Assembly: GCA_025774865.1 (NCBI GenBank)
Contig: JALGZO010000530.1
Location: 1 to 6,416, forward strand
Reading direction: 5' to 3'
Source of the DNA: a bacterium
Lineage (GTDB): Bacteria > ARS69
DNA length: 6,416 bases
The notes beneath the pieces are model-generated. The model was given only the letters and a program-made list of their open reading frames with translations, was not told where the DNA came from and made no database searches. The translations under genes and the position numbers were made by a program. Of the stretch, positions 1 through 6,416 are shown piece by piece; within the stretch, counting starts at the first letter, position 1, and each line of letters begins with the position of its first letter.

Positions 1-1910
1 TTCTTAACGGGCGCCCCGACGCGCCGAAACCGCCATCGGACCCCGCCATTCTCGGTCCGGCGCGATCCTTCGTCCGGGTCTCCGGCGACCTGTCGCCCGT
101 TCTCGACGAGCTTCTCTCGCGGTCGGTGATCGTGGAAACGCTCGACGATGCACTGCGTCTCGCGAGGCGCGACGGCGCGCGAAGCTTCCGATTCGTGGCG
201 AAGGACGGCGACTGGGCGGAGGCTCCGGGTATCGTGCACGGTGGTGCGCCCGCCTCCGGCGACTCGCGGATCCTCGGTCGGGCGGATCGCATCGCGGAGA
301 TCGAGCGCCGGGTCGCCGTCGCGCAGGAACGACGGGCGAAAGTCGAAGAGCGAGCCACGTCGCTCGTGACAGAGCGAGATCGTCTCGCCGTTCTTCTCCA
401 AGAGCTCGAGACTCGGCGCGGCGAACAGAGAGAGAAGCTGGCCGGGGAGGAGCGTCAGGCCGAGCGAATCCGGGCGGAGACCACCGGGGCCGAAGAGCGG
501 CGCCGGACGGTACAGGCGGAGCGCGAGAGCCTCGACGGCCGCCGCGGGGAGCTCGTCCGTGAGCGAGAGACCCGCCTCGCCGCGGTCGCGGAGGCCGAGG
601 AGCGGCGGACCCAGCTCGAGGAGGACTGGCGCGAGCGGGAGAGCGAGCTCACCGAGTCGTCCGAGGATCGCGAGCGGGCTCGCGCCGAGAGCCACGAGCT
701 GCTCCTCGAGAAGCAGCGGATCGTCAGCGAAACGGAGAAGGTCGCGGTCGAGATCGAGCGAATCGCCGAAGCCCGGCAGGCCGACGAGAAGGGTATCGCC
801 CAGCGGACGGAGCAGATCCAGGATACCGAGAGCACGGTGGAACAGCTTGACCGGGAGCACACCGCCGGGCTGTCGGAATTCGCCGAGAGAGCGGCTGAGC
901 TAGACCAGCGACGGCGCGTACGCGATCGCGTCGCCCAGGACCGAGCGGAGGTCATCGAGAAGCTCCGCGAGATCGAAAGCGAGCGCGACCGGTGGGCACG
1001 TCTCCGCGATCAATCGTCGGAGCTCGCTCACGAGAACGAGATGGGCCTCGCGAAGCTGGAAGCAGCGCGAGAAGAGCTCGTCGCCCGGATGGAGCGCGAG
1101 TTCGAGGTGAACCTCGCCCTCCCCGGTTCCACGGAGGCCCACGGCGCTTTCATCGACGCGCCCGCGGAGCCGGTCGAGGCGGCCCGTCGCGAGCGCGACG
1201 ATCTGCGGCGCCAGGTGGATCGGTTGGGGGCGGTCAATCTGGTGGCGCTGGACCAGTATGAACGCGAGGCCAAGCGCTACGAGTTCCTGAAGATCCAGCG
1301 GGACGACCTGGAGGAGGCGCGAGAGAGGCTTCGGCGCACGATCCGAAAGATCAATCGCACCGCACGAACGCAGTTCATGGAGACGCTCGAAAACGTGCGG
1401 GAGAACTTCCAGAAGACGTTCGGGACGCTCTTCGACGGAGGCGTGGCCGACATCCGACTCGCGGGCGACGAGGATCCGCTCCACGCCCCGATCGAGATCA
1501 TGGCGCGCCCGCGTGGAAAGCGGCTGAACAACATCCATCTGCTTTCGAGCGGAGAGAGGGCTCTCACCGCCGTGGCGTTCCTCTTCGCCATCTATCTCGT
1601 CAAGCCGAGTCCGTTCTGCATCCTCGACGAGGTCGACGCCCCTCTCGACGATGCCAACATCGGACGATTCCTCGACATGCTCAAGAAGGTGGCGGAGAAG
1701 ACCCAGTTCGTCATGATCACGCACAACAAGAAGACCATGGAGGTCGCCGACTACCTGTACGGCGTCACCATGGAAGAGGCCGGCATCTCGAAGCTCGTCT
1801 CGGTGCACCTGGGGAAAGGTGGCTTGCCCGCGCTGACACCGCCGCCGCAAGCGGAAGGGGCGGGTGAGGTCGAGCTGGGAGGTGAAGTGGTCATGGAGGG
1901 CTCCGCTTGA
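1..1910 (+). CDS. smc: Chromosome partition protein SMC, C-terminal half (5' truncated)
   Basis: SMC is the ATPase subunit of the SMC-ScpAB (condensin-like) complex, which organises and helps segregate the chromosome on the nucleoid. The frame is open from base 3 without a start, so only about 635 C-terminal codons are visible. In order: the end of the hinge domain (about 3-245), closing with the conserved GxxxGG motif (GIVHGG, 228-245); a long Arg/Glu-rich coiled-coil return arm (about 275-1330); the conserved RLGAVNLVAL segment before the head (1227-1256); the ABC signature LSSGE (1542-1556); Walker B with catalytic glutamate (FCILDEVDAPLD, Glu at 1629-1631); and the H-loop (ITHN, His at 1722-1724). 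The normal family end (KLVSVHL) is followed by about 32 low-complexity residues. The signature reads LSSGE rather than the usual LSGGE. Walker A and the N-terminal arm lie outside the window. The GTG at 126 falls inside the hinge and is not a start. The stop codon overlaps the ftsY start. Family identity is certain. Confidence 0.97.
   Translation, partial: LNGRPDAPKPPSDPAILGPARSFVRVSGDLSPVLDELLSRSVIVETLDDALRLARRDGARSFRFVAKDGDWAEAPGIVHGGAPASGDSRILGRADRIAEIERRVAVAQERRAKVEERATSLVTERDRLAVLLQELETRRGEQREKLAGEERQAERIRAETTGAEERRRTVQAERESLDGRRGELVRERETRLAAVAEAEERRTQLEEDWRERESELTESSEDRERARAESHELLLEKQRIVSETEKVAVEIERIAEARQADEKGIAQRTEQIQDTESTVEQLDREHTAGLSEFAERAAELDQRRRVRDRVAQDRAEVIEKLREIESERDRWARLRDQSSELAHENEMGLAKLEAAREELVARMEREFEVNLALPGSTEAHGAFIDAPAEPVEAARRERDDLRRQVDRLGAVNLVALDQYEREAKRYEFLKIQRDDLEEARERLRRTIRKINRTARTQFMETLENVRENFQKTFGTLFDGGVADIRLAGDEDPLHAPIEIMARPRGKRLNNIHLLSSGERALTAVAFLFAIYLVKPSPFCILDEVDAPLDDANIGRFLDMLKKVAEKTQFVMITHNKKTMEVADYLYGVTMEEAGISKLVSVHLGKGGLPALTPPPQAEGAGEVELGGEVVMEGSA
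1895..1900 (+). promoter_or_regulatory. Ribosome binding site for ftsY, inside smc
   Basis: GGAGGG lies six bases before the TTG at 1907, within the last codons of smc. This strong Shine-Dalgarno sequence at ideal spacing supports the TTG start and suggests that ftsY is translated by ribosomes finishing or re-initiating at the smc stop. Confidence 0.75.
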
Positions 1911-2857
1911 TCGGAAAGATCGGGCGCGGATTCACCAAGCTCAGAGACGGCCTTCGGAAGAGCAGAGACCACCTCGGAGACGGCATCCGTTCGATCGTGA
2001 GCGGGCGCTCCGCCGTCGACGAATCGATGTGGGAAGAGATCGAGGAGCTCCTGCTCCGAGCCGACGTCGGGGCGGGGACCGCCGAGGCGATCGTGGCGGA
2101 CCTGCGTCGCTCGGCCACGGGGTGGTCCCGTCCCGAACCTGCGGAAGTGATGGAGGGGCTTCGCTCCGCCATCGCGGACCTCATGGGCACGGATGACCGC
2201 GCGGCCCTGAACCTCGACCCGGAGGATCGTCCCGCGGTCGTTCTCGTGATCGGGGTGAACGGGGCGGGCAAGACCACGACGATCGCGAAGCTGGCCGCTC
2301 GTCTCTCCGGCGAGGGCAAGAGGGTGGTCCTCGCGGCGGGAGACACCTACCGTATGGCGGCGACGGAGCAGCTTGGCGAGTGGGCCGATCGGGTCGGCGT
2401 GCCGGTCGTCAAGGGGAAGGAAGGCGCCGACGCCGCCGCCGTCGTCTTCGACGCGCTCGAGTCCGCCATTGCTCGCGAAGCCGACGTCCTGATCGTGGAT
2501 ACGGCCGGTCGCCTTCATACGAAGACGGAGCTCATGGAGGAGCTCCAGAAGATCCGTCGCGTTCTGGAGCGCCGGTCGCCCAAGGCGCCGCACGAGACAC
2601 TGCTCGTTCTCGATGCCACCACGGGTCAGAATGCGCTGACTCAGGCCCGGGTCTTCGGCGAAACTCTCGGAGTGACGGGCCTCGTGCTCGCGAAGCTGGA
2701 TGGAACCGCCAAGGGAGGCGTCGTCCTCGCCATTCGGCGGGAGCTCGCGGTGCCCGTCAAGCTCGTCGGGGTGGGAGAGGGAATCGAAGATCTCGAGGAC
2801 TTTGATCCGGCCGCGTTTGCCCGCGCGCTGGTGCCGTCCGAAGAGTCGGCAGACTAG
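1907..2857 (+). CDS. ftsY: Signal recognition particle receptor FtsY
   Basis: FtsY is the membrane-associated GTPase that receives Ffh/4.5S RNA-bound ribosomes and delivers nascent membrane proteins to the Sec translocon. The 316-residue protein is a minimal FtsY: a basic amphipathic N-terminal helix (about 1-30), the N-domain helical bundle (about 35-95) and the G domain. GTPase motifs: G1 [10 protein letters not shown] (116-125), G2 DTYRMAA (146-152, usually DTFRAAA), G3 DTAGR (198-202), G4 AKLD followed by GTAKGG (262-271, usually TKLD), and the closing GVGEGIEDL (288-296). The acidic A domain of E. coli FtsY is absent, as in many short FtsY proteins, so the N-terminal helix is the likely membrane-targeting element. 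The TTG at 1907 is chosen because it has an excellent RBS and retains this helix; the first in-frame ATG (2027) would remove it. The gene overlaps smc by four bases (TTGA), and 11 bases separate it from the next gene. All core residues look functional. Confidence 0.97.
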
Positions 2858-2868: not shown

Positions 2869-4716
2869 TTGGACGGTGAGCCGCGCTCCGACTCCAACCC
2901 TGGCTCGTTCGAAGAGGCTCAGGCGCGAGTCCGTGAGCTGGAGGGGAAGATCGAGACTCTCCTCGCCGTGATTGATCGCGACGCGTACGGCCGGCAGCAG
3001 AGCCACGATCAGGTCGCCCACCTCTTCCGGATCAGCGCGTCGGTGCTCGTCGCGTCCGAGCTCGACGAGCAACTCGGGCTCGTGGCGGAGGGTATCGTCA
3101 CCGCGTGCAATTTCCGGCGGTGCGTGATCACCCTCCTCGACGAGGACTGGACGGTGTGGAAGCGGCAACACGCCGGCCTGTCCGCCGATGAGGCGAAGGC
3201 TCTCGATGAAGGGCCGGGCGTCAGCCCCGCCCAGCGGCGGAGCTTCCTAGACGAGAAGTATCGCGTCGGCAACTCCTACTTCATCCCCCACGACTCCCGG
3301 CTCGCGACGCAGCTCTTCGGCGTCGGCGTGTCTTCGAGTCGTTCGCAGGAGGAATTCGTCGACTGGCACCCGGAGGACCTCCTCTTCGTACCGCTCATGG
3401 GCAAAGACGAGAAGCTGCTCGGGACGATCTCCGTGGACGACCCGCTCGACGGACGTCGCCCCACCCCCGTGAGCCTTCGCATTCTCGAGCTGTTCGCGCG
3501 GGAAGCGGCGTTCGCCATCGAGCAGAACTTGCTGATGCGGGAGCTGAGTCGGACGGAGGGCTATCTGGAGAGCCTCATCCGGAACTCGACCGACGCGATC
3601 GTGACGACGGATCCGGAAGGCAAGATCGTCATCTGGAACGAAGGGGCGGTCCGCATGCTCGGCTGGGAGATGGAGGAGATCGTGGGCCACACCGTGGTCC
3701 GCGTCTACGCCAACGAGGAAGAGGCGCGTTCGATCATGCGCCGGCTGATGAGCGGGGACGAAGGAGATCCCGGCCGGCTGTCGAGCTTCGAGACGGTACT
3801 GGTGTCCAAGGTGGGCGAGAGAATCCCCGTGGCCCTCTCGGTGTCCGCCCTCTACGGGGCGGACGGCGAGTTCCTCGGCACCGCCGGTATCTCTCGAGAC
3901 CTTCGGCCGTGGAAGCGGCTCGAGCAGGAGCTCGTGGCCGCGGAGAAAGCGGCGACGCTCGGAGAAGTCGCTGCCACGCTCTGTCACGAGATCAACAATT
4001 TCCTGGAGGAGATCCTGTCGGCCGGGCAGGTGTCGCTTCTCACGCTCGACCTCGATGAGGTCCGCAAGATGTACGGCGACGCCGGCAAGGGGACGGAGCT
4101 CGACAGCGAGGTACAGCGTCTCACCGTCATTTCGCGCGAAGCGTTGAAGATCGCGTCCCTGACGAATCGGCTGCAGGCGATGGCCCGCGGCGGCGCATAC
4201 GACACGACCGAGTACGTCGGCGACATTCGAATGGCGTCCGTGCCAGAACTCGGGGAACGCGTCGGTGCGCGTATCCTGGTCGCCGACGACCGTCAGTTCA
4301 TCCGCGAGTTCCTGCGAGACTTCCTCGTTCTCGAGGGTTTCCAGGTGGACGTCGCTTGCGACGGTGAAGAAGCTCTCCAGAAGGCGAAGGCGGCGCACTA
4401 CGATCTTGTGCTCTCGGACATCAAGATGCCTCACCGGAACGGCTACGAAGTCTTCGCGGGCGTGCGCGAGACGGACCCCGGCACGAAAGTCATCCTCATG
4501 ACGGCCTACGGCTACGACCCGTCGCACTCCATCGTGAAGGCGTCGGACGAAGGACTCTCGGACGTCCTCTACAAGCCGTTTCAGATGGCTCGCGTGCGAG
4601 ATGCCATCGTCAAGGCGCTGAGCGAGAACGGAGTCGCGGGCGACGAATCGACGGCGAGGGCCAAGAAGAAGGCGAAGGCCAAGGCGGGGGCCCGCGCCAA
4701 GGGCAGGAAGCGGTGA
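2869..4716 (+). CDS. GAF-PAS-DHp-receiver signalling protein lacking a kinase ATPase domain
   Basis: This is a soluble two-component signalling protein of 615 residues with no signal peptide or membrane segment. Domains in order: a short coiled coil (about 13-38); a GAF domain (about 47-220, with the subtype signature SYFIPHD, then LFVPL, then ISVDDPLDGRRPT); a PAS domain (about 232-346); a HisKA-like DHp pair, with helix 1 carrying the H-box CHEINN (His373, Glu374, Asn377) and helix 2 at about 414-440 (REALKIASLTNRLQAMAR); a short linker (441-467); a receiver domain (468-585) with acidic pocket Asp473/Asp474, phospho-acceptor Asp517, Thr545 and Lys569; and a Lys/Arg/Ala tail (596-615). The HATPase_c domain expected after helix 2 is missing: there is no N-box or G-box and no room for one. 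The protein therefore should not phosphorylate itself. It may accept phosphate from another kinase, act as a phosphatase, or dimerise as a regulator. The ligand and output are unknown. The TTG start has a good RBS, and the gene overlaps the next one by four bases. Domain calls are firm; the role is inferred. Confidence 0.9.
   Translation: MDGEPRSDSNPGSFEEAQARVRELEGKIETLLAVIDRDAYGRQQSHDQVAHLFRISASVLVASELDEQLGLVAEGIVTACNFRRCVITLLDEDWTVWKRQHAGLSADEAKALDEGPGVSPAQRRSFLDEKYRVGNSYFIPHDSRLATQLFGVGVSSSRSQEEFVDWHPEDLLFVPLMGKDEKLLGTISVDDPLDGRRPTPVSLRILELFAREAAFAIEQNLLMRELSRTEGYLESLIRNSTDAIVTTDPEGKIVIWNEGAVRMLGWEMEEIVGHTVVRVYANEEEARSIMRRLMSGDEGDPGRLSSFETVLVSKVGERIPVALSVSALYGADGEFLGTAGISRDLRPWKRLEQELVAAEKAATLGEVAATLCHEINNFLEEILSAGQVSLLTLDLDEVRKMYGDAGKGTELDSEVQRLTVISREALKIASLTNRLQAMARGGAYDTTEYVGDIRMASVPELGERVGARILVADDRQFIREFLRDFLVLEGFQVDVACDGEEALQKAKAAHYDLVLSDIKMPHRNGYEVFAGVRETDPGTKVILMTAYGYDPSHSIVKASDEGLSDVLYKPFQMARVRDAIVKALSENGVAGDESTARAKKKAKAKAGARAKGRKR
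4705..4710 (+). promoter_or_regulatory. Probable ribosome binding site for the YfhO-type gene
   Basis: AGGAAG lies within the last codons of the signalling gene, just before the GTG at 4713. Spacing from the AGGA core to the start is only about four bases, which is tight, so initiation may rely on coupling through the GTGA overlap. A stronger GGAGGAG (4721-4727) lies after the start codon and has no usable in-frame start at proper spacing. Confidence 0.5.
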
Positions 4717-6416
4717 GCGAGGAGGAGAGGCCGCTTCTCCTGCGATTCGCGATCGGTCATCGACTGGAGCTCGGCCTCTTCCTACTCGTCGTCCTGCTGT
4801 TCTCCGATTATCTCTTTTCGGATCAGCTCCTCTACGGCAGCGACTCGATTCCGGCCGGGCTGTTCTTCCGCGGGTTGCTCGTCGATTTCGTGATGGAGTT
4901 CGGTGAGCTTCCGCGGTGGAATCCGTACATCCTCGGCGGCCTCCCGTTCCTCGACGCGACGCACGGAGACACCTTCTTTCCGTCTTCGCTTCTGCAGTTC
5001 GTCATGCCCGTGTACCGCGCGCTGGGTCACAAGCTTTTGCTGCACATCTTCCTCGCCGGCGCGTTCATGGCCTTCTACTTGCGCACCCTCACGCTTCGCC
5101 CGACGGCGGTGGCCATCGGATCTCTCACTTACATGCTCTCGCCGATCCTCGTGAGCTACTTGTTCGCCGGCCAGGACGGAAAGATGTACGTCACGAGCCT
5201 CGCGCCGCTCGTCCTGGGCACCCTGGAGCGGGCGATGCGCACCGGCGAGGCGCGCACGTTCCTCGGCCTCGGGGTCACCATCGGGGTGACGATTCTCTCC
5301 GCGCAAATCCAGATGGCGTATCACCTGATGTGGTTCGTCGGCGCGCTCTGGCTCCTGCGCGTCTTCCGCGGGCCGGCGGGCGGAGGGGAGCCTCCGCCAC
5401 GGGCGAAGACGATCGCGTTGTTCGTGACCGCGGTCGGGCTGGGCGTCCTCATCGCCGCGATCCAGCTCGTTCCGGCCGTCGCGTACGTGAAACACCCCGC
5501 CGAGTTCTCCGTGCGCTCCACGAGGACGGAATACGAGCATGCCACGTCGTGGTGCCTGCACCCGGAGGAGCTGGCGTCGATGATCGTTCCGGACTTCTGC
5601 GACGCTCCTCGCGGCTACTGGGGTCGCAACCCGTTCAAGTACAACTCCGACTACGCGGGCGTCCTGACGCTTCTGCTCGCGGTCCTCGCTCTCATCCGGC
5701 GCCGCGACTCGACGCGCCTCTTCCTCGCTGGACTAGCGATCTTCGCGATCCTGTATTCGCTCGGCCAGTACACGCCGGTGCACCGACTGTTCTACGCCGT
5801 GGTGCCTCAGGTGAAGCTGTTCCGGGCCCCGCCGCTCGTCATGTTCGCGGCGGCCTTCGGTCTGTCGGCGCTCGCTGCGCTCGCGGTGGACGACCTGGTC
5901 GGCGCGGCGGAGACGAGGCGCGCGAAACCGGAGCTGGGGGGTGCCGGCCGGATCCTCCCGTGGGGACTCGGGGTCGCGGGTGCGATCGCGGTCGCGGGAT
6001 TGGCCGGCGGCGGGGTGGCGTCGTTCTGGAACGATCTCGTCTACCCGGACATCGCGGACGGGCAGCGCCGGATGCAGTTGGCGAGCCTCCCGGCATTCCG
6101 AGACGGCGCGCTCGTGATCGCCGGAATCCTCGCGGCCGGAACCGTGGTCGTCCACGCGCGGGCCCGCGGATCGCTGCCGACGAACGTCTTCACCTGGGCG
6201 CTCGCGGTCCTGATCGTGGTCGACCTCTGGCGGGTCGACAAGGACTTCAAGGTCGTGATGGAGCCGGATCGGTTCATACAGCCGGACGCCGTGATCGCGC
6301 CGATCGCGGCGGAAGCACGTCGCGAGAAGTTCCGCGTGATGCCGATCGTCCGGCAATACCAGTTCAATGAGCTCGGATACCACGGCATCGAGTCGGTCAT
6401 GGGGTTTCACGACAAC
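4713..6416 (+). CDS. YfhO-family polytopic membrane protein (3' truncated)
   Basis: The frame from the GTG at 4713 stays open to the last base, giving 568 codons with no stop, so the C-terminus is missing. About 11-12 hydrophobic membrane segments are visible (roughly 18-36, 108-123, 131-150, 184-200, 203-222, 235-255, 315-331, 336-351, 375-392, 416-436, 466-482, 490-508). Recognisable motifs include WNPYILGGLPF (69-79) with HGD (84-86) in the first large loop, GQDGKMY (153-159), YWGRNPFKYNSDYAG (302-316), FRAPP (370-374), DRFIQPD (519-525) and a closing YHGIESVMGFHDN. This pattern matches bacterial YfhO-like proteins, which resemble GT-C lipid-linked-sugar glycosyltransferases; B. subtilis YfhO is linked to lipoteichoic acid glycosylation. 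Asp44 in the first loop and Asp86 are candidate catalytic acids by analogy only. The GTG is chosen because later starts would lose the first membrane segment. It overlaps the signalling gene's stop (GTGA). The substrate is unknown. The family call is from remembered motifs. Confidence 0.8.
   Translation, partial: MSEEERPLLLRFAIGHRLELGLFLLVVLLFSDYLFSDQLLYGSDSIPAGLFFRGLLVDFVMEFGELPRWNPYILGGLPFLDATHGDTFFPSSLLQFVMPVYRALGHKLLLHIFLAGAFMAFYLRTLTLRPTAVAIGSLTYMLSPILVSYLFAGQDGKMYVTSLAPLVLGTLERAMRTGEARTFLGLGVTIGVTILSAQIQMAYHLMWFVGALWLLRVFRGPAGGGEPPPRAKTIALFVTAVGLGVLIAAIQLVPAVAYVKHPAEFSVRSTRTEYEHATSWCLHPEELASMIVPDFCDAPRGYWGRNPFKYNSDYAGVLTLLLAVLALIRRRDSTRLFLAGLAIFAILYSLGQYTPVHRLFYAVVPQVKLFRAPPLVMFAAAFGLSALAALAVDDLVGAAETRRAKPELGGAGRILPWGLGVAGAIAVAGLAGGGVASFWNDLVYPDIADGQRRMQLASLPAFRDGALVIAGILAAGTVVVHARARGSLPTNVFTWALAVLIVVDLWRVDKDFKVVMEPDRFIQPDAVIAPIAAEARREKFRVMPIVRQYQFNELGYHGIESVMGFHDN

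Follow-up and report, generated by a model that had tools for sequence, protein, structure and literature searches.

What does the DHp domain of a histidine kinase do in a protein that lacks the catalytic ATPase domain? This question is raised by the window, the whole 6,416-nucleotide stretch of bacterial DNA analyzed here, in which a 615-residue protein combines GAF, PAS, DHp and receiver segments in a single chain (Table 1). A sequence-only reading of the window had noticed that about 27 residues separate an apparently well-preserved DHp from a complete receiver at the place where HATPase_c would normally sit. It left three mechanisms unranked: a phosphorelay node, a phosphatase acting on its own receiver and a dimerizing response regulator.

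Table 1. Features of the window, with residue numbers of the 615-residue protein
Feature	Position	Strand	Basis or remark
ftsY, upstream neighbor in all five genera	1907–2857	+	SRP54 E 3.3e-75; synteny
CDS, GAF-PAS-DHp-receiver protein without ATPase domain, 615 aa	2869–4716	+	TTG start likely
GAF domain, residues 65–217	3061–3519	+	Pfam PF01590, E 3.1e-9
PAS domain, residues 233–345	3565–3903	+	Pfam PF13426, E 2.4e-12; PF00989, E 4.8e-12
DHp helix 1, residues 346–393, HisKA-like	3904–4047	+	hhalign against own-genome HisKA; AF2 model
H-box H373-E374-I375-N376-N377, putative phosphoacceptor His and H+4 Asn	3985–3999	+	conservation
DHp helix 2, residues 408–439	4090–4185	+	AF2 model; alignment
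28-residue linker, residues 440–467, at the HATPase_c place	4186–4269	+	alignment; AF2 model
Receiver domain, residues 469–580	4273–4608	+	Pfam PF00072 (Response_reg)
Conserved receiver segment, β4-α4 region	4507–4560
C-terminal tail, about 27 residues	4633–4713
YfhO-like multi-pass membrane protein, downstream	4713–6416, runs off window	+	PF09586 sub-threshold, E 1.2e-4; synteny

Domain layout and the place of the ATPase domain

The reading frame is intact throughout, and homology with orthologues starts near residue 42. Pfam HMM searches matched GAF, PAS and Response_reg, the last with 89.3 bits. All receiver catalytic residues that it had listed are present: the acidic pair D473/D474, the phosphoacceptor D517, T545 and K569. 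These are invariant columns in a six-sequence alignment (A1) and are kept in all five members from the window's family. Pfam recognized no output domain in the protein; GAF and PAS are N-terminal, and the receiver is followed by a tail only. Single-domain response regulators lack an output domain as well. The tail ends in a Lys/Ala/Arg-rich run, ARAKKKAKAKAGARAKGRKR, which is absent from the other four genera of the window's family and possibly binds nucleic acid or membrane.

For residues 346–468 Pfam reported nothing. HisKA stayed below the cut-off: the window fragment scored E 0.22, and the best E-value in 18 members of the protein family was 0.12. The DHp assignment therefore needed a separate test. 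Using hhalign, we set a profile of the 18 members (residues 342–466) against an alignment of 20 kinases of HisKA-HATPase type encoded in the same genome. The match had a probability of 96.2%, an E-value of 2.4e-9 and a score of 61.2, and it aligned H373 with the phosphoacceptor His of the kinases. The top score among 100 column-shuffled controls of the family profile was 18.0. An earlier run against one kinase alone had been weak (probability 15) and is superseded by the 20-kinase run. As a prediction from profiles, the DHp assignment is solid.

An AlphaFold2 model of residues 340–588, based on a 43-row alignment (mean pLDDT 87.5, pTM 0.78), consists of helices 346–393, 396–404 and 408–439 and a β-hairpin at 445–457, followed by the receiver. 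A full-length model from six sequences was too poor for use (pLDDT 58). Searches for similar folds in PDB used a DHp-receiver query, and their rows were filled by receiver domains. The residues H373, E374 and N377, which lie in the segment LCHEINNFLEEI, and the coordinates are as the sequence-only reading had them.

No HATPase_c match was detected by Pfam at E<=1 in the window protein, nor was there one in the 18 family members. From the end of helix 2 to the receiver there are 28 residues, close to the number first estimated. Elsewhere in the genome, HATPase_c lies 37–53 residues after HisKA in all 31 complete HisKA matches, the 32nd being cut by a contig end. A hidden or divergent HATPase within residues 380–467 was considered and is ruled out by Pfam, the profile comparison and the confident AlphaFold2 model. 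An Hpt domain (PF01627) was also sought; none matched at the locus at E<=0.001, and two are present elsewhere in the same genome. A DHp protein without an ATPase domain cannot autophosphorylate. Since the ATPase is missing family-wide, the window protein would be unable to do so.

The linker has features of its own. It carries the motif Y-x-x-(G/D)-x-I-x-M-x-x-(L/I)-P together with the predicted β-hairpin, and Y449 and M455 do not vary among 18 sequences drawn from two phyla.

Relatives, gene order and origin

The genome, a fragmented bin, has an estimated contamination of 8.3%. Orthologues in the other four genera of the window's family (sampled as five genera) are 64–70% identical to the window protein and have no ATPase domain, and all of them read LCHE(I/T)NNFLE(E/T)I in the H-box region. 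The gene order smc–ftsY–this gene–yfhO is common to all five genera. Orthologues downstream of ftsY, a comparison suggested by the sequence-only reading, lack HATPase and keep His 373 in 5/5 genera. Because the layout is the same in the orthologues, it is not an accident of one genome. Syntenic orthologues in four genera together with relatives in two further phyla rule out a recent deletion or assembly error, whose probability we regard as negligible. Neither a concealed ATPase domain nor an orthologue containing one turned up when looked for.

The YfhO-like gene shares nucleotides with the stop of the regulator gene, and the two are neighbors in five genera. Family members in Planctomycetota have as neighbors a polyprenyl synthetase, a Ser/Thr kinase gene and an RsmB-like gene, and neighbor genes are varied in a second phylum, that of genome G007. 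In the lineages examined, with ten neighbors scanned with Pfam, no adjacent kinase, effector or two-component gene was recognized. A neighboring kinase or effector was accordingly rejected as the partner, none being found among the genes beside family members in these lineages.

In total, we collected 52 family members from at least three phyla, none of which has an ATPase insert. The gene is present once per genome: in 5/5 genomes of the window's phylum and in 13/17 of the second phylum, including 9/9 near-complete ones. Among 294 sampled genomes of Planctomycetota, the DHp-receiver profile found matches in 37 at E<=1e-40. The distance between the His and the receiver Asp is 99–101 residues in the window's family, 98–107 in the second phylum and 75–81 in Planctomycetota with an alignable DHp. 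When 87 receiver domains were placed in a tree, those of the 52 family members fell on one side of a branch with support 97/91, and this split recurs in 98% of bootstrap trees when one change is allowed. The tree rests on 120 columns, and many of its inner forks are weak; this includes the fork joining the window's family to Planctomycetota (84/74), with the second phylum outside. Given this branching order, the simplest reading would be a His-bearing ancestor and one loss of the His in Planctomycetota.

Related GAF-PAS-HisKA front ends occur in complete kinases of other genomes, so that the family, as judged from sequence, probably arose from a hybrid kinase that lost its ATPase. One of these complete kinases, on contig 23 of G007 (L138:1439–3103), is a GAF-PAS-HisKA-HATPase kinase of 555 residues in which GIAHEINNPL occurs and the GTGLGL box is intact. 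Its GAF-PAS part is 34% identical to that of the window protein, and its gene adjoins a receiver-HD domain gene. It is possible that this kinase represents a partner or an ancestor type. Further complete kinases of this kind are L027 and L028.

H-box, receiver and the role of the DHp

The H-box differs between lineages in a stepwise manner. In the window's family the His, the acidic residue at H+1 and the Asn at H+4 are each kept in 5/5 members. In the second phylum the His and an Asn or Thr at H+4 are retained in 13/13 members and the acidic H+1 in 0/13, its place being taken by His (8), Arg (2), Tyr (2) or Asn (1). None of the 34 Planctomycetota members has the His (31 substitutions, 3 gaps); Asn is found at H+4 in one of them and Thr in none, and the two shortest lack an alignable DHp. 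Across the His-bearing clade of two phyla, H373 and an Asn or Thr at 377 are thus invariant (18/18 each), while E374 is confined to the window's family and most other positions of helix 1 vary widely. The retention of HExxN emphasized in the sequence-only reading therefore holds in full for the window's family, but in the wider family the Glu is not kept.

The receiver, by comparison, is the constant part of the family. D517 is as invariant as H373 in the 18 His-bearing sequences, and D517, T545 and K569 are kept in 34/34 Planctomycetota members. As Planctomycetota keep these residues after the loss of the His, the function of the receiver is independent of the DHp His, and any phosphate on the receiver would come from another source. 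Overall, the comparative data support the earlier view of a protein with no autokinase domain in which both DHp and receiver are under selection.

Two further observations concern the receiver. The equivalent of D474 is replaced in 12/34 Planctomycetota members, as in VADSD and VVDSD (among L103–L116). The segment GYDPxHSIVKASxEGL in the β4-α4 region is unusually conserved across phyla, with Y549 and H553 (window numbering) invariant in 43 sequences. Such conservation suggests that the receiver probably has a conserved partner.

We tentatively propose that what was once a HisKA kinase has become a dimeric response regulator, with the DHp acting as a sensor-gated phosphatase, and give this proposal somewhat less than an even chance. 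Input from the GAF and PAS sensors would feed the DHp hairpin and the receiver, and the DHp would join two copies of the protein. Another kinase or a small phosphodonor would phosphorylate the receiver in trans. In the window's family, H373 and N377 might then dephosphorylate a receiver (their own, that of the dimer partner or that of another regulator) under GAF-PAS control, and the receiver itself would be the output, through protein contacts.

In characterized HisKA kinases (CrdS, HK853 and others), the acidic H+1 is required by the kinase activity alone, and Thr or Asn at H+4 by the phosphatase activity alone (PMC3510030). The DHp domain of HK853 by itself shows phosphatase activity on its regulator, and this is lower in the H260A mutant (PMC5727384). 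All 18 proteins of the His-bearing clade have this HisKA-type phosphatase motif, the His with Asn or Thr at H+4. We rank the phosphatase reading first because the second phylum has lost the kinase-only residue and kept both the phosphatase residue and the His. In addition, the loss of the DHp His with retention of the receiver Asp in Planctomycetota makes DHp chemistry a dispensable accessory, as expected of a phosphatase or of a tuning function more than of a step on which a relay depends. The H+1/H+4 pattern as a sign of phosphatase activity is nevertheless suggestive rather than decisive, and the Asn or Thr at H+4 could be structural. The acidic H+1 is absent from HisKA_2 kinases too, so that its loss is no proof of a phosphatase. 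Likewise, Spo0B has an H-D-x-x-N motif and yet is a phosphotransferase; since a phosphotransfer DHp may carry Asn or Thr at H+4, that position does not decide the matter either. Counting against the phosphatase reading, a laboratory-evolved ChrS without a working CA domain owing to a frameshift was phosphatase-dead and acted through the partner kinase HrrS (PMC9491836).

The same residues bear on the alternatives. In a phosphorelay, phosphate would pass from a kinase to D517, then to H373 and on to another response regulator, or in reverse, much as in a fused Spo0F-Spo0B or PhyT. The joint invariance of H373 and D517 in the 18 His-bearing sequences agrees with this, as do the dozens of receivers and kinases in the same genome that might be connected, and DHp phosphotransfer without HATPase is known for PhyT (PMC5898713) and ChpT (PMC3433190). 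However, a relay requires the His alone, yet the Asn or Thr at H+4 is equally invariant in kind; Planctomycetota retain the receiver chemistry without the His, as if the receiver were not merely a relay step; and no partner regulator was recognized next to the gene in the lineages examined. We consider a relay fairly unlikely and place it second.

A dimerizing response regulator and nothing more, in which the DHp scaffold couples GAF-PAS sensing to receiver pairing and the H-box is a leftover of the four-helix-bundle core, would fit the Planctomycetota proteins, which have dispensed with the His and the H+4 Asn or Thr and kept hairpin and receiver. These proteins show that a dimerizing receiver alone is viable, and dimerization has been proposed for archaeal REC-PAS/GAF-HisKA proteins without HATPase (Galperin et al., PMC5847659). 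It leaves unexplained why the His is invariant in 18/18 sequences from two phyla when most positions of helix 1 vary, and we regard it as distinctly unlikely, third in order. Least probable, and in our estimate very unlikely, is a split kinase, either a heterodimer with a complete kinase or a protein whose H373 is phosphorylated by the ATPase domain of a separate kinase. Split kinases have been described (PMC3591291), the ChrS variant just mentioned worked through HrrS (PMC9491836), and complete kinases with a related GAF-PAS-HisKA front occur in G007, G005 and G038. On the other hand, no complete kinase that would match it came to light in the genome from which the window was taken, and the sister phylum has no acidic H+1, which is needed for HisKA phosphorylation. 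The three mechanisms of the sequence-only reading are thereby narrowed, the H-box comparison favoring a phosphatase over an obligatory relay and leaving a dimerizing receiver alone as viable.

More broadly, the phosphatase reading would describe an ancient module contained in a single protein, whose DHp came from a kinase and is now a dedicated sensor-gated phosphatase (or relay) for a fused receiver. The module would be vertically kept, near-universal in some phyla and seen in stages of decay from HExxN through HxxxN/T to no His; we advance this as a possibility rated a little lower than evenly balanced. If true, it would be a natural dissection of the kinase, phosphatase and dimerization roles of the DHp. 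The natural experiment lies in the way the family separates three DHp jobs (autokinase substrate, phosphatase and dimerizer) across phyla.

Comparison with known systems

Annotation is apt to list proteins of this kind under histidine kinases or plain PAS proteins, and pathway maps drawn from HisKA and HATPase counts consequently mis-assign them. The family points to a conserved orphan receiver in poorly studied phyla. In the open-access papers searched, we did not find a description of a bacterial HATPase-less family with a C-terminal receiver, and the family seems to be undescribed.

In domain order the family resembles hybrid histidine kinases (HisKA-HATPase-REC), the probable ancestor, save for the HATPase; unlike in these, the catalytic ATPase is absent from every member. 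With PhyT of Sphingomonas, ChpT of Caulobacter and Spo0B the family would share DHp-type His chemistry without kinase activity, but none of these three unites GAF, PAS, DHp and receiver in one chain. ChpT and Spo0B retain a degenerate CA-like domain, and DivL retains its CA domain. Together with the frameshifted ChrS (PMC9491836), the pseudokinase DivL is a further example of a DHp protein that signals without catalysis. Neither has a fused receiver, and the ChrS variant is a laboratory-evolved frameshift.

The closest parallels come mainly from archaea, in which "HisKA, no HATPase" proteins and REC-PAS/GAF-HisKA regulators such as AF_1472 have been described (PMC5847659). The roles proposed for these proteins are dimerization, phosphotransfer or phosphatase activity (PMC5847659). 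A family of truncated histidine kinases is known in Archaeoglobus (PMC1183210), and in P2CS proteins with HisKA alone are classed either as incomplete kinases or as phosphotransfer proteins (PMC2716373). The window protein falls under the "HisKA, no HATPase" definition (PMC5847659), having sensors and a DHp whose His is conserved but lacking HATPase, and it shares a receiver with the AF_1472 type. The receiver comes first in the archaeal regulators, REC-(PAS)n-HisKA, whereas it is C-terminal here. Moreover, unlike the archaeal proteins, the present family is bacterial, monophyletic over at least three phyla, two of which carry it almost universally, and marked by a graded loss of the H-box.
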